A stretch of 51,790 nucleotides of DNA. Origin: Verrucomicrobiota bacterium. Its GTDB lineage: Bacteria > Verrucomicrobiota > Verrucomicrobiia > Chthoniobacterales > UBA10450. Of this stretch, positions 36,274-40,426 are shown in pieces; positions within the stretch are counted from its first letter, which is position 1, and each line of letters opens with the position of its first letter. Location: the NCBI GenBank assembly GCA_003219695.1, contig QHQA01000114.1, forward strand, positions 1-51,790, in the 5' to 3' direction. Both the position numbers and the translations under genes were made by a program. Below the pieces are notes generated by a model that worked only from the letters and a program-made list of their open reading frames with translations, was not told where the DNA came from and ran no database searches.

Positions 36274-37636
36274 TTCCACGTCACCCCTTGGCTACCCCAC
36301 GAATCTACTCGCGCCGGCGCAAACGTACGAGACCGTCAATAAAACAATCGCCGACATCCCGCTAAAGCCCGCGCCGGGGCCCTGGTGGGTTGGTTTTATC
36401 ATCGCGTTTTTGTTGCTGATGATGTTTTTGGTCGCCGTCACCTGGCTCTTCTGGAAAGGCGTCGGCATCTGGGGCATCAACATCCCGGTGGCATGGGGAT
36501 TCGCGATTGTGAATTTCGTCTGGTGGGTGGGAATCGCGCACGCTGGCACGTTCATCTCCGCGATTTTGCTTTTGCTTTTCCAGCCGTGGCGCACGGCCAT
36601 CAACCGTTTCACGGAGGCGATGACTCTGTTTGCCGTGTGTTGCGCAGGTCTGATGCCGTTGCTTCATCTCGGGCGGCCATGGGTTTTTTACTGGCTACTG
36701 CCATATCCCGACACGATGCGCCTCTGGCCGCAATTCCGCAGTCCGCTGGTGTGGGACGTTTTTGCAGTCGGTACTTATTTCACGATCTCATTGTTGTTTT
36801 GGTATCTCGGCCTGGTTCCCGATTTGGCGACAGTCCGCGATCGCGCAAAAAAACTTTGGCAAAAAAAAGTGTATGCCTTCTTCGCGTTAGGCTGGCGTAA
36901 TTCCGCGGCGCACTGGCAACGGCATCAGATTGCGTACTTACTGCTGGCCGGGCTGGCGACGCCGCTCGTGCTCTCGGTGCACAGCGTTGTCAGTTTCGAT
37001 TTTTCCGTGGCGATTGTTCCCGGTTGGCATTCGACAATTTTCCCGCCGTACTTTGTCGCCGGAGCGATCTATTCCGGGTTCGCGATGTCGCTGAACATCG
37101 TCATTCCGGTGCGCAAGATTTATCATTTGGAAAATCTGATCACGGACCGTTACCTGAACAACATGGCCAACATCATGTTGGTGACGGGGATGATTGTTGC
37201 CTACGGCTATTTCATCGAAGCGCTGATGGCCTGGTACAGCGGCGACATTTTTGAAATTTACATGATGATCAACCGCGCGTTTGGCCCTTACGGCTGGGTC
37301 TTCTGGACCCTGATGCTTTGTAATGTGCTCGTGCCGCAGACGCTCTGGTCAGCGCGCATCCGGCGCAACCCGGTGCTGCTGTTCATCGTGGCGCTCTTCA
37401 TCAACGCCGGCATGTGGATCGAGCGCTTCGTGATCGTCATCACCAGTTTGCATCGTGATTATCCGCCGGCGATGTGGGCGATGTTTTATCCCACCAAATG
37501 GGATTGGATGACTCTCTTCGGCAGCGTCGGTCTCTTTCTCACACTGCAATTTCTATTCATCCGGTTCGTGCCGATGATCTCCATTTCCGAAACGCGCGAG
37601 CTGGTTGCCGAGCCAGAAAAGGCAAACACCCTATGA
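36221..37636 (+). CDS. actC: Alternative complex III quinol-binding membrane protein, ActC (NrfD-like)
   Basis: The 471-residue integral membrane protein has about ten helices; clear ones start at WWVGFIIAFLLLMMFLVAV (about residue 50), VAWGFAIVNFVWWVGIAHAG (about 87), AMTLFAVCCAGLMPLLHLGRP and MLVTGMIVAYGYFIEALMAWYSG. The IAHAG and HLGRPW blocks are the NrfD/PsrC quinol-site marks. It is the likely quinol oxidation site together with ActB. Translation may start at 36221 or 36230. It overlaps actD by four bases (ATGA). Confidence 0.95.
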   Translation: MRNMNAPDQSPLTSDFSPSTSPLGYPTNLLAPAQTYETVNKTIADIPLKPAPGPWWVGFIIAFLLLMMFLVAVTWLFWKGVGIWGINIPVAWGFAIVNFVWWVGIAHAGTFISAILLLLFQPWRTAINRFTEAMTLFAVCCAGLMPLLHLGRPWVFYWLLPYPDTMRLWPQFRSPLVWDVFAVGTYFTISLLFWYLGLVPDLATVRDRAKKLWQKKVYAFFALGWRNSAAHWQRHQIAYLLLAGLATPLVLSVHSVVSFDFSVAIVPGWHSTIFPPYFVAGAIYSGFAMSLNIVIPVRKIYHLENLITDRYLNNMANIMLVTGMIVAYGYFIEALMAWYSGDIFEIYMMINRAFGPYGWVFWTLMLCNVLVPQTLWSARIRRNPVLLFIVALFINAGMWIERFVIVITSLHRDYPPAMWAMFYPTKWDWMTLFGSVGLFLTLQFLFIRFVPMISISETRELVAEPEKANTL

Positions 37637-38160
37637 GCGAGACCTACGGATTGCTCGCGGAATTTTCTACGCCCGAAGCGCTAATGCACGCCGCGGAGGA
37701 AGCATATGCCGCGGGCTTTCGCCAGATGGACGGCTATGCGCCATTCCCAGTGGAAGGATTGCCGGAGGCGCTCGGCAAAAAGAATCGTCTTCCGCTATTG
37801 GTTTTAATTGGCGGCATTATCGGGGGTCTCGGCGCCTACTTCATGGAATGGTACGCGAACGCGATCAGTTACCCGATCAACATCGGCGGTCGCCCTACCA
37901 ACAGCTGGCCTTCATTTATTCCGATCACGTTCGAATTGACGGTCCTCTGCGCTGGGCTCACTGCCTTCTTCGCCTCGTTTGCCTTGAACGGTTTGCCGCG
38001 TCCGCATCACCCACTTTTCAGCATTCCGGAATTCGATCGCGCGTCGCAGGACCGCTTCTTTTTGTGCATCGAAACGAAAGACCCGAAGTTTCATCCAAAT
38101 GAGACCCGCGCCTTTTTGCAACAGCTGAATCCCGTTTCCATCACGGAGGTGCCGGAATGA
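37633..38160 (+). CDS. actD: Alternative complex III membrane subunit ActD (DUF3341)
   Basis: The 175-residue protein begins ETYGLLAEFSTPEALMHAAEEAYAAGF, the DUF3341 start, then two membrane helices (LLVLIGGIIGGLGAYFMEWYA near 58 and IPITFELTVLCAGLTAFFASFAL near 98), with the conserved IGGRPTNSWP between them. The tail is soluble. ActD packs beside ActC in known ACIII. The 4-base overlaps with actC and actE mean tight coupling. Confidence 0.95.
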   Translation: MSETYGLLAEFSTPEALMHAAEEAYAAGFRQMDGYAPFPVEGLPEALGKKNRLPLLVLIGGIIGGLGAYFMEWYANAISYPINIGGRPTNSWPSFIPITFELTVLCAGLTAFFASFALNGLPRPHHPLFSIPEFDRASQDRFFLCIETKDPKFHPNETRAFLQQLNPVSITEVPE

Positions 38161-39263
38161 ACCAGATTGGTAGGGCGCGACCGCCGGGCGCGCCGAACAG
38201 GCATCCACAACGCAAAAAGCTTCCGCACGAACGACCTCTCTGGCTGCGCCCCGAAGGCGAAATTTTCTTTGTTACGGTCTGCTGCGAACCACGCGGCAAA
38301 AATCAGCTCTGCTATTCGAACATTGCACGCGCAATTTTTGATTCTGTTGAATTTCGGAATCAAAACGCCATTTGGTATGCGCACTTGGCCTGCTTAATGC
38401 CGGACCACTTACACGCGCTCATCTCGTTTCCCTATGAGCGCTCGATGAAGCAGATCATGTCTGATTGGAAGCGATTTTTGGCCACGAGACTGAAGATCGA
38501 GTGGCAACGCGATTTTTTCGATCATCGTTTGCGAAAGGAAGAAAGTTGCAGGGAAAAAGCGGACTATATTCGTGCCAATCCGGTTCGCGCGGGGCTGATC
38601 GCACCTTCAGAAGAGTGGCCTTATTTTTGGTTGGCTGATTCTCAGAAAGAAAACGCAAATCGTGAGTATGGAGTGCTGTGCCCCGGCTCGCCCGGCGGTC
38701 GCGCCCTACCATTGCTGCTTGCGCTAGCGTTCCTTTTCGCCGCTTGCCGTCCCGACATGGAGAACCAGCCTAAAGCGAAGCCGCTTTCTGAAAGCGACTT
38801 TTTCTCTAATCAAGCGAACGCTCGTCCCCTTCCGCCGCACACGGTCGAGCGCGGCGGCGCTCGCGAGAATGCTGCGTTCTACACTGGCCTAACGAACGGG
38901 ACTTACATCACGCAGATTCCAGTGCAGTTGACGCCGGAACTGCTGGCTCGCGGCCAGGAACGCTTCAACGCCATTTGCGCCGAGTGCCACGATCGCACTG
39001 GCAGCGGCAACGGCATGGTGATCCAACGCGGGTTTCCTCAACCGCCGTCATTTCATCTCGATCGTCTGCGCAATGCGCCCATCGGCCATTTCTTCGACGT
39101 AATCACAAAAGGCTATGGAGTGATGTATCCATACGCTACGCGCGTCGAACCGGAGGACCGCTGGGCCATCGCTGCTTATATCCGCGCTTTGCAACTCAGC
39201 CATGACATTAAAGCGTCTGAGCTCACTCCCGATGAGCAGCGGAAACTTGGGAACAAGCAATGA
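38157..39263 (+). CDS. actE: RAYT transposase domain fused in frame to cytochrome c ActE
   Basis: One uninterrupted 368-residue frame starts at the usual ATGA overlap with actD. Residues 5-184 are a REP-associated tyrosine transposase: P-D-H84-L-H86-A gives the HUH metal pair, and Y137 in KADYIRANPVRAGL is a candidate catalytic tyrosine. From 185 on, PLLLALAFLFAAC (lipobox Cys197) begins a normal ActE lipoprotein with heme site CAECH 274-278 and a candidate axial Met323. The lipoprotein signal is thus internal unless translation restarts, for example at TTG 38712. The transposase lies between 22-bp perfect inverted repeats. Confidence 0.9.
   Translation: MNQIGRARPPGAPNRHPQRKKLPHERPLWLRPEGEIFFVTVCCEPRGKNQLCYSNIARAIFDSVEFRNQNAIWYAHLACLMPDHLHALISFPYERSMKQIMSDWKRFLATRLKIEWQRDFFDHRLRKEESCREKADYIRANPVRAGLIAPSEEWPYFWLADSQKENANREYGVLCPGSPGGRALPLLLALAFLFAACRPDMENQPKAKPLSESDFFSNQANARPLPPHTVERGGARENAAFYTGLTNGTYITQIPVQLTPELLARGQERFNAICAECHDRTGSGNGMVIQRGFPQPPSFHLDRLRNAPIGHFFDVITKGYGVMYPYATRVEPEDRWAIAAYIRALQLSHDIKASELTPDEQRKLGNKQ
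38168..38711 (+). mobile_element. RAYT element with terminal inverted repeats inserted in actE
   Basis: The left end (38169-38190) begins GGTAGGGCGCGACCGCC; its exact 22-bp reverse complement is at 38689-38710, and pairing continues with one mismatch to 38194 and 38685. T38168 and A38711 also pair. ATT flanks both sides (38166-38168 and 38711-38713). The element encodes the RAYT domain and no stop. Removing 543 nt would restore M-N-Q-I-LLLALAFLFAAC, a good lipoprotein start, so the original actE can be reconstructed. Confidence 0.85.
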
Positions 39264-40426
39264 GCTCTATCGTCAACGCTGTGGCTGCTCGCGCAAAAAT
39301 CGTTTCGTTAGGCGTGGGCGTGCTCGGGCTGGCCGGCTGCGTTGCGGGTTGGATCGTTGCGCCTGGCGACTTCTTTGTCGCATATCTTTTCGGGCATTTC
39401 TTTTTTCTCGGGCTTTCGCTCGGCGCGCTCGCATTACTGATGACCCATCATCTCACCAGTGGTTACTGGGGCTACAGCGTCCGGCGCTTTCTTGAATCGG
39501 CCGTGAGTACTTTGCCGTTGCTGGCGGTTCTCTTTGTGCCGGTCTTTTTCGGGCTGCCACAACTTTACCCGTGGAAAAATCCTTCCGTCATCGCGGCGGA
39601 CGAAATTCTGCGCAGCAGGCTATATTACCTGAATACTCCCGGCTACGTCATCCGAAGCGCGGTAGTGTTCGCGATCTGGATCGTCATGGCGCGGTTTCTT
39701 TTGAAATGGTCGGCCGAGCAAGACGCCACCGTCTCCGTGGAGCCGACGCGTAAAATGCGGACCCTCAGTGGGCCGGGGTTGGTCATCTACCCGGTGACAA
39801 TGACCTTTGCCGCCATCGATTGGTTGATGTCTCTAGAGAAGGATTGGTATTCGACCATGTTCGCCGTTATGATCTGCATCGGGCAGATGTTGGGCGCGCT
39901 GGCATTCGTGATTTTGCTTCTTTCGGTCGCAGCTGACTCCAGACAACTCGGGCCCGTCATCTCGAAGGAGGAAACCTTTCACAAGATCGGGAACCTGCTT
40001 CTCGCATTCACCATGCTCTGGGCCTATCTGGAATTCGGACAGTTGCTGATTACCTGGTCGGGAAATTTGCCGCACGAGATTTCGTGGTACCTCAATCGCG
40101 TCACGGACGGCTGGCGCTGGGTCTGCGTATTTCTATTTCTATTTAACTTCTTCGTCCCATTTTTTTTGCTGTTAATGCGTCCCGTCAAAAGGCGGTATCA
40201 GGTTCTGGCCAGTGTCGCAGCATGCATTTTTATCGCGCACATCGTTGATGTGTGGTGGACGATCGCGCCCAGTCTTCATCCGGAACATGTTTATGTTACT
40301 TGGTGGGCAGTTATCGCGTTCCTTGGCATCGGTGGAATCTGGTCAGCGGCATTTTTGAAAAACTTGGAGAGACGACCAGCCGTGCCGCTGAACGACCCGC
40401 GGTTCGCAGTCGCTGTGCCGGCATGA
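39260..40426 (+). CDS. actF: Alternative complex III membrane subunit ActF
   Basis: The 388-residue protein is an ActC-like membrane subunit with about ten helices, such as GVGVLGLAGCVAGWIVA near 20, YLFGHFFFLGLSLGALALLM near 45, VSTLPLLAVLFVPVFFGLP near 80 and LAFTMLWAYLEFGQLLITWSG near 245. The FGHFFFLGLSLGALALLMTHHL block and the RLYYLNTP sequence fit ActF. It overlaps actE and the next gene by four bases each. Confidence 0.94.
   Translation: MSSIVNAVAARAKIVSLGVGVLGLAGCVAGWIVAPGDFFVAYLFGHFFFLGLSLGALALLMTHHLTSGYWGYSVRRFLESAVSTLPLLAVLFVPVFFGLPQLYPWKNPSVIAADEILRSRLYYLNTPGYVIRSAVVFAIWIVMARFLLKWSAEQDATVSVEPTRKMRTLSGPGLVIYPVTMTFAAIDWLMSLEKDWYSTMFAVMICIGQMLGALAFVILLLSVAADSRQLGPVISKEETFHKIGNLLLAFTMLWAYLEFGQLLITWSGNLPHEISWYLNRVTDGWRWVCVFLFLFNFFVPFFLLLMRPVKRRYQVLASVAACIFIAHIVDVWWTIAPSLHPEHVYVTWWAVIAFLGIGGIWSAAFLKNLERRPAVPLNDPRFAVAVPA

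Follow-up and report, generated by a model that had tools for sequence, protein, structure and literature searches.

In the verrucomicrobial genome analysed here, a complete RAYT (a TnpAREP-type HUH/Tyr transposase) lies in one open reading frame with ActE, the monohaem cytochrome c of alternative complex III. We consider it probable that this is an old RAYT insertion in the n-region of the ActE signal peptide, which is translated as a fusion, acts on its REPs and is one case of a wider strategy. RAYTs reside in frame inside other host proteins in the same genome and in many of its relatives.

The RAYT in the reading frame of actE

The window, the whole stretch of 51,790 nucleotides that was analysed, carries on its forward strand a single open reading frame of 368 residues at 38157-39263 with zero internal stops (Table 1). 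An earlier note on this DNA had described a RAYT with an HUH pair, 22-nt perfect inverted ends and a frame open through both parts, and had remarked that the lipoprotein signal of the cytochrome becomes internal. The reading of the ORF, an NCBIfam match and a repeat search bear out the first description, and the hydrophobic core and lipobox are indeed found downstream of the RAYT. The inverted ends are 28 nt long and 96% complementary (38168-38195 against 38684-38711), with the perfect pair at 38169-38190 and 38689-38710. The length of the insert, 543 nt, preserves the frame; 542 or 544 would break it. The note also placed the insertion after the fourth codon of actE. An ATG and three further codons do precede the insert here, but this stretch is longer and of different sequence in the other four genomes that carry the fusion, and so is not conserved. 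Direct reading of the sequence shows that the TGA stop of actD shares bases with the actE start (ATGA), thus translation of actE is probably coupled to that of actD. The sequence GGAGGT is retained ahead of the start in the five fused genomes and in an unfused close relative (G068).

Table 1. Features of the actD-actE region of the window, with the evidence for each
Feature	Position	Strand	Evidence
actD	37633..38160	+	Pfam ActD, 217.7 bits
Shine-Dalgarno GGAGG of the actE start	38145..38149	+	sequence
ATG and three further codons ahead of the insert	38157..38168	+	sequence
Left terminal inverted repeat, GTAG-type REP; RAYT frame open (GRARPPGAP)	38168..38195	+	repeat search
Complete inserted element, 543 nt	38169..38711	+	inverted ends; one-base border ambiguity, 38168-38710 equally long
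RAYT (TnpAREP-type HUH/Tyr transposase) domain	38253..38624	+	NF047646; AlphaFold model and Foldseek 4er8; phmmer 4er8, 34.7 bits
Right terminal inverted repeat; frame open (GGRALP, then ActE signal)	38684..38711	+	repeat search
ActE hydrophobic signal core and lipobox to Cys197, now internal	38712..38747	+	sequence
Mature ActE, monohaem cytochrome c of alternative complex III	38745..39263	+	Pfam; Foldseek 6lod_E, 6f0k_E, 8k9e_E

Residues 33-156 match the NCBIfam family REP_Tyr_transpos (NF047646) with 87.0 bits against a cut-off of 80. They contain the residues required of a Y1-type enzyme, an HUH motif formed by His84 and His86 (38406-38414) and a catalytic tyrosine, Tyr137 (38565-38567). 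By alignment count, HUH is present in all five fused RAYTs and the tyrosine in four; the G075 copy has His in place of the catalytic Tyr, and in the G070 copy NP is changed to NS. The best Foldseek match of the AlphaFold model is TnpAREP 4er8 (E 2.0e-08, TMt 0.64, rmsd 13.2 over 171 columns), and the HUH/Y1 transposases ISDra2 and IS608 are also matched. The mean pLDDT of the fusion model is only 61.5. The RAYT part (residues 31-160) reaches 77-95 per ten-residue block (78 in the first block), the signal and linker fall below 50 and the haem domain is mostly low; the model supports no domain arrangement. A start and stop codon of its own, which belong to the usual anatomy of a RAYT gene but do not define the family, are not found in the fused RAYT, and a stop codon between RAYT and ActE is absent in all five fused genomes. 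We class this part of the fused protein as a RAYT; its arrangement appears to be a new one among in-frame selfish elements.

In the ActE part, residues 263-342 match Pfam Cytochrome_CBB3, and the haem motif CAECH begins at 38976. Foldseek matches this part to subunit E of solved alternative complex III (6lod_E, 6f0k_E and 8k9e_E). Fold and position thus both identify the gene as actE, encoding a monohaem cytochrome c after actD. The cysteine after the hydrophobic core (Cys197 of the lipobox, 38745-38747) is retained in the five fused genomes, where ActE is a candidate for lipidation. In Rhodothermus marinus, ActE is regarded as a lipoprotein and a lipobox is reported (PMC5928083).

More than 10 residues ahead of HUH, four of the five fused genomes offer no in-frame ATG, GTG or TTG other than the actE ATG (locus L037 has one extra TTG). 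Without a start of its own well ahead of HUH in these four, and open through both ends, the RAYT would form the N-terminal part of an ActE whose translation begins at the actE ATG. The hydrophobic core could then act as an internal signal or anchor, so that the RAYT stays cytoplasmic and the cytochrome is exported. Lipoprotein signal peptidase (LspA), which probably frees the cytochrome from its long N-terminal part, would cut before Cys197 and release normal ActE, giving two proteins from one message.

The earlier note had left three options: a fusion, an internal restart of ActE with TTG 38712 as a candidate, or tolerated loss. The fusion is supported, and restart and loss are not, given that ActE is under purifying selection (see below), that all eight fused or scarred genomes keep an open frame between the upstream ATG and the lipobox, and that possible restart codons are not conserved. 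With a restart, the RAYT would be made from the actE start and ActE separately from a right-end codon (TTG 38712 or GTG 38673), which we regard as quite unlikely. In-frame TTG and GTG codons do lie 11 and 24 codons before Cys197, and the GTG start would yield a signal containing Arg. TTG 38712 makes a poor start, since it has no Shine-Dalgarno sequence by our motif list, gives a signal without positive charge and is not conserved. The nearest starts that leave at least 10 residues before the Cys vary among the five loci, being TTG (11 codons), GTG (12), TTG (10), GTG (38) and ATG (12) in L031, L035, L037, L045 and L050, respectively. The start codons within 40 codons of the Cys differ throughout the five fused genomes, and at none of them did the motif list find a Shine-Dalgarno sequence; by comparison, 11 of the 21 orthologues without a RAYT or scar have a Shine-Dalgarno-bearing ATG 16-23 codons before the Cys. 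The motif list is a simple and crude one; the starts listed are the last eight per frame and, for the five fusions, all of them. Moreover, a restart would not require an open frame from the upstream ATG, yet the frame is open in eight of eight cases, which speaks for read-through and against a chimeric assembly. Splicing of the insert out of the RNA (as an intron or IStron) or out of the protein (as an intein) is very improbable. Insertion in conserved genes, empty sites and turnover do resemble introns and inteins. However, no Rfam intron matches near the insert (37500-39500, E up to 1), where the sole match is a ylbH leader with 17.8 bits, far below its gathering score of 50. An RNA intron also needs no open frame, and the frame is open across the entire insert in the five fused genomes. 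Finally, no intein family is among the NCBIfam matches listed for 13 embedded or fused proteins (the best 25 for three of them). With neither a conserved internal start for ActE nor, by the motif list, a Shine-Dalgarno sequence at any of the candidates, read-through as a fusion is the best explanation.

Other insertions touch the same place. Loci L033, L034 and L046 have a different in-frame insert in the n-region of the ActE signal (peptide like 'LINTEALARC...QTVKTVR...HRAKAPVLM'), and L049 has a REP-like peptide there. The n-region of ActE seems to be a general landing zone.

Spread, probable age and proposed activity of the fused RAYT

Both parts occur in one open frame in 5 of the 213 genomes of the order, all in family f1: the window genome G000, G070, G071 and G075 of genus g1, and G002 of genus g3. 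An assembly chimera, the possibility that the earlier note named as fatal to its reading, is very unlikely because the same fusion recurs in five genomes of two genera and because embedded RAYTs are also present in few-contig genomes (for example in RecG of G038, about 10 contigs). The single, odd disruption that the note implied is wrong: species of two genera have the fusion, which exemplifies a widespread RAYT habit. The note suggested looking for the empty site in close relatives. The closest ActE relative, from G068 (92% identical), has no insert and nearly equals the window before the start and after the lipobox; only the signal differs. Three more genomes have in-frame RAYT remnants. 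In G076 an in-frame deletion has removed internal sequence and left the RAYT ends; G077 and G080 have a right-end scar (GRALP, with one mismatch in G080) plus another in-frame insert.

A quick tree, which has some long branches and took 175 of 188 rows after removal of duplicates under other locus ids, unites the five RAYTs in one clade (SH-aLRT 99). With four outgroups (tree of 9), the clade has supports of 100/99 from DNA and 94/98 from protein. Among the five, the RAYT branching is resolved only in part (supports 92-97), and there it agrees with the ActE tree. In the fused genomes, dN/dS is 0.05-0.17 for the RAYT in 7 of 10 pairs (dS is saturated in the other 3) and 0.09-0.21 for ActE in all 10, indicating purifying selection; pS is 0.47-0.76 in the RAYT and 0.39-0.72 in ActE. 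Together with the trees, these values point to a probably old insertion in which both parts are constrained. The element would have entered the n-region of the lipoprotein signal probably once, long ago. The ActE tree comprises 29 loci, 21 from a first ortholog search and 8 chosen from an order-wide search. Outside it are fragments (G009 and the second piece of G053), a second, divergent G068 copy, and order-wide orthologues that include those of G120, G144, G148-G150, G152 and G153. The RAYT is present at only 5 of the 29 loci. Its presence takes 5 changes on this tree against a shuffled mean of 4.8, and presence or scar also takes 5. It is no more clustered than shuffled labels, so a RAYT that was gained once must have been lost several times.

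The nearest free relatives of the ActE RAYT (L137 in G019 and L138 in G028, about 1501-1923, 59% identical, with like ends) lie between coxB and coxA, named by eye; their contigs, in these two other genomes, carry actE about 3.4-3.8 kb from the RAYT. A short match to query residues 3-47 (left end and start of the RAYT) occurs in an Oleiharenicola MAG (L286).

The 22-mer of the left end has 39 exact copies in the 3.1-Mb assembly of the window genome and 55 with up to 2 mismatches, against 0 for a reversed-pattern control; the REPs flanking this RAYT have copies elsewhere in the genome, as in other RAYTs. None of the other listed RAYT places of this genome is within 4 kb of an actE-type REP copy. 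Counted across the 83 genomes of the family, the fused genomes have 55, 44, 41, 31 and 11 copies, the scarred genomes 30 (G076), 10 and 0, and the two genomes with the related free RAYT between coxB and coxA 13 and 2. The median is 0 in the other 73, of which the 28 in the genus have a median of 7.5 (2-53). One-sided Mann-Whitney tests, which ignore relatedness, give p=1.5e-4 for the fused genomes against the 73 others and p=0.008 for the 4 fused against the 28 within the genus. G002, which is outside the main genus, has 41 REPs, and the 45 remaining other-genus genomes at most 3. G072 (53) and G074 (38) are REP-rich with no detected fusion; a close ActE orthologue was also not found there. 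G075 holds 31 REPs despite the His in place of its catalytic Tyr. The larger REP numbers of the fused genomes suggest that the fused enzyme works, and we infer from these counts and from the retained catalytic residues that the fused RAYT may keep its activity on its REP family.

Six loci of the window genome (L005, L008, L011, L025, L028 and L029) have actE-family REPs at codons within open frames of 549-991 codons, each with more than 200 codons open on both sides. REPs alone may therefore also sit in frame in genes.

Two other histories of the fused RAYT have to be weighed against an old insertion that stays active. One is homing, in which RAYTs re-insert at the actE signal by horizontal transfer, recently or repeatedly. 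The scattered presence on the ActE tree fits it, as do a RAYT pS of 0.47 between G000 and G071 that is lower than their ActE pS of 0.68, and the very different RAYTs that close hosts can carry at one RecG or CarB site (see below). It is weakened by the agreement of the RAYT and ActE trees where resolved, by a RAYT pS of at least 0.56 in 8 of 10 pairs and by the right-end scars in two further genomes (L033 and L034); homing is possible, though we lean well away from it. The other is a neutral passenger, a fused RAYT that is inactive and retained merely because in-frame deletion is rare. We hold this to be unlikely: the replaced Tyr of G075, the change of NP to NS in G070 and the in-frame decay in G076, which shows that loss is tolerated, would agree with it, but the low dN/dS of 0.05-0.17 at high divergence and the more numerous REP copies of fused genomes would not. 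The old, active insertion remains the reading that we prefer.

RAYTs embedded in other host proteins

The window genome has further RAYTs in frame inside MetH, RecG and CarB. Across the 83 family genomes we catalogued 107 embedded copies, four duplicate entries having been dropped, and 59 genomes have at least one. The hosts are RecG (40 genomes), CarB (28), MetH at two sites (10 and 5), AlaS (6), ActE (5), TsaC (4), MqnA (3), ValS (2), and ThrS, ClpB and a RarA-like ATPase (1 each). For each host one representative was compared with NCBIfam, which confirmed all but RarA and ClpB, which are below curated cut-offs, and MqnA, which is named by eye; the ClpB copy is cut by a contig end, with its far side beyond the contig. 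A host was assigned when at least one flank was similar to another member, and several loci end at contig ends. For matches at E about 1e-26 or better, essentially all listed places were taken. Of the weaker CarB-type matches 43 were used, 37 of them embedded, a biased rate as they were partly picked for long frames. In the MetH-type RAYT lineage, 65 of 76 loci are embedded.

Beyond the family, the MetH-type lineage was found in 64 of the 213 order genomes (E up to 1e-25). In a phylum-wide draw, 15 of 387 genomes have a match at E up to 1e-15, 10 with a frame of at least 700 codons and 5 without. A RAYT stands between the two halves of AlaS, always in the same region, in G363, G531 and G474 of the same class and in G274 of another class, and RecG with a RAYT was also found in G394 of this draw. 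In another family of the class, loci L300 and L302 (G447 and G474) have a CarB-type RAYT in frame in the C-terminal part of MetH, which is probably a third MetH site. In the window genome, the frame of the RAYT-bearing CarB (L269, G000:C82) stops at 930 aa, compared with about 1340 aa in several relatives; either the frame is broken downstream of the RAYT or the assembly is at fault.

By alignment count, both His and the Tyr are retained in 97 of the 104 scorable embedded copies. Median RAYT dN/dS is 0.06-0.19 across host classes, with many dS values high and unsaturated pairs a minority (189 of 700 for RecG and 2 of 14 for AlaS). Copies group by host site, with 22 changes on the tree against a minimum possible of 12 and a shuffled mean of 92.7. 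RecG, MetH and CarB need more than one change each, so these sites have probably been hit more than once.

By eye, the insertion sites lie in linkers and loops. By domain order, the MetH site is presumably between the homocysteine and folate domains, the CarB site in the middle linker, the RecG site between two helicase motifs and the AlaS site in a loop. In the model of a RecG-RAYT protein (mean pLDDT 64.6), the RAYT lies between low-confidence stretches at 356-408 and 551-580, a hint that the linkers are flexible. RecG was found in 75 of the 83 family genomes. Among 20 RAYT-less RecG genes inspected by eye, 7 have a short uninterrupted loop, 5 have in-frame REP or end scars and 8 have short variable linkers. 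At RecG or CarB sites, host dS is 0.24 and RAYT dS 2.88 between L190 and L198, and 0.48 and 2.93 between L267 and L200. Close hosts thus sometimes have very different RAYTs at one place, which indicates turnover. G054 and G060 have a second long RecG match without a RAYT, and the figures for the RecG loci with a RAYT are identical in G054 and G066; some binning error is therefore possible.

We propose that Verrucomicrobiota RAYTs that are open through their ends could settle in frame in loops, domain linkers and signal n-regions of housekeeping proteins, where an out-of-frame loss of the RAYT would destroy the host protein. The data suggest a mobile element that survives by being translated within proteins the cell can hardly lose. 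A bolder version has, to our mind, about even prospects. It holds that one Verrucomicrobiota RAYT lineage is largely no longer a separate gene and persists as a domain in essential enzymes, with borrowed starts and protection from deletion, intein-like without splicing; in ActE, LspA would make the product a polyprotein and free an active transposase that maintains the genomic REP population.

Relation to known elements

The embedded element resembles the RAYT/TnpAREP system (REPtron) in its HUH and Tyr residues, its NCBIfam match, GTAG-type REPs at both ends, scattered REPs and the 4er8 fold. It differs in being part of a host protein and using the start of the host, given that published RAYTs, in the portions of the literature available to us, are separate genes. 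The E. coli TnpAREP cuts single-stranded REP (PMC8266576). REPs that preserve the frame are described inside tnpAREP genes in a Y1 superfamily study (PMC6006769). GTAG REPs inside ORFs, many of them for DNA repair and some for tRNA synthetases, are reported, including in the Verrucomicrobium Opitutus terrae, in available excerpts of Di Nocera 2013 (PMC3733652). Those are REPs, dimers or clusters coding up to 82 residues, and the excerpts describe no whole transposase. The same excerpts cite Rickettsia palindromic elements (RPE), palindromic DNA in frame in protein-coding genes. The embedded RAYT is similarly an in-frame insertion in a host protein that stays under selection. RPEs are not known to carry a transposase gene.

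Inteins and homing endonuclease genes reside in frame in conserved enzymes and show empty sites, decay and apparent turnover at fixed sites. Embedded RAYTs share the in-frame residence in conserved enzymes, the empty sites, scars and turnover. In contrast to inteins, no self-splicing domain was found among the matches listed, the nuclease is an HUH transposase, and it stays part of its host, from which signal peptidase may sever it in the case of ActE. The transposases of IS200/IS605 elements and IStrons are related HUH/Y1 enzymes (Foldseek matches to ISDra2 and IS608), but the 543-nt insert has no intron match and no TnpB, and its ends are palindromic REPs.

A literature search, which covered few subscription journals, found no publication on complete RAYTs that reside in frame within housekeeping proteins. 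The REP field has yet to explain how RAYTs last so long as single genes passed on by vertical descent, and residence in proteins that the cell cannot lose would answer this directly and testably. If the proposal is true, a nuclease domain can be accommodated in defined loops of helicases, tRNA synthetases and metabolic enzymes, and the n-regions of signal peptides are a safe harbour for mobile genes. Surveys may hide embedded RAYTs: the Y1 superfamily study dropped a few proteins that were longer than expected, taking them for fused genes or errors of annotation (PMC6006769).
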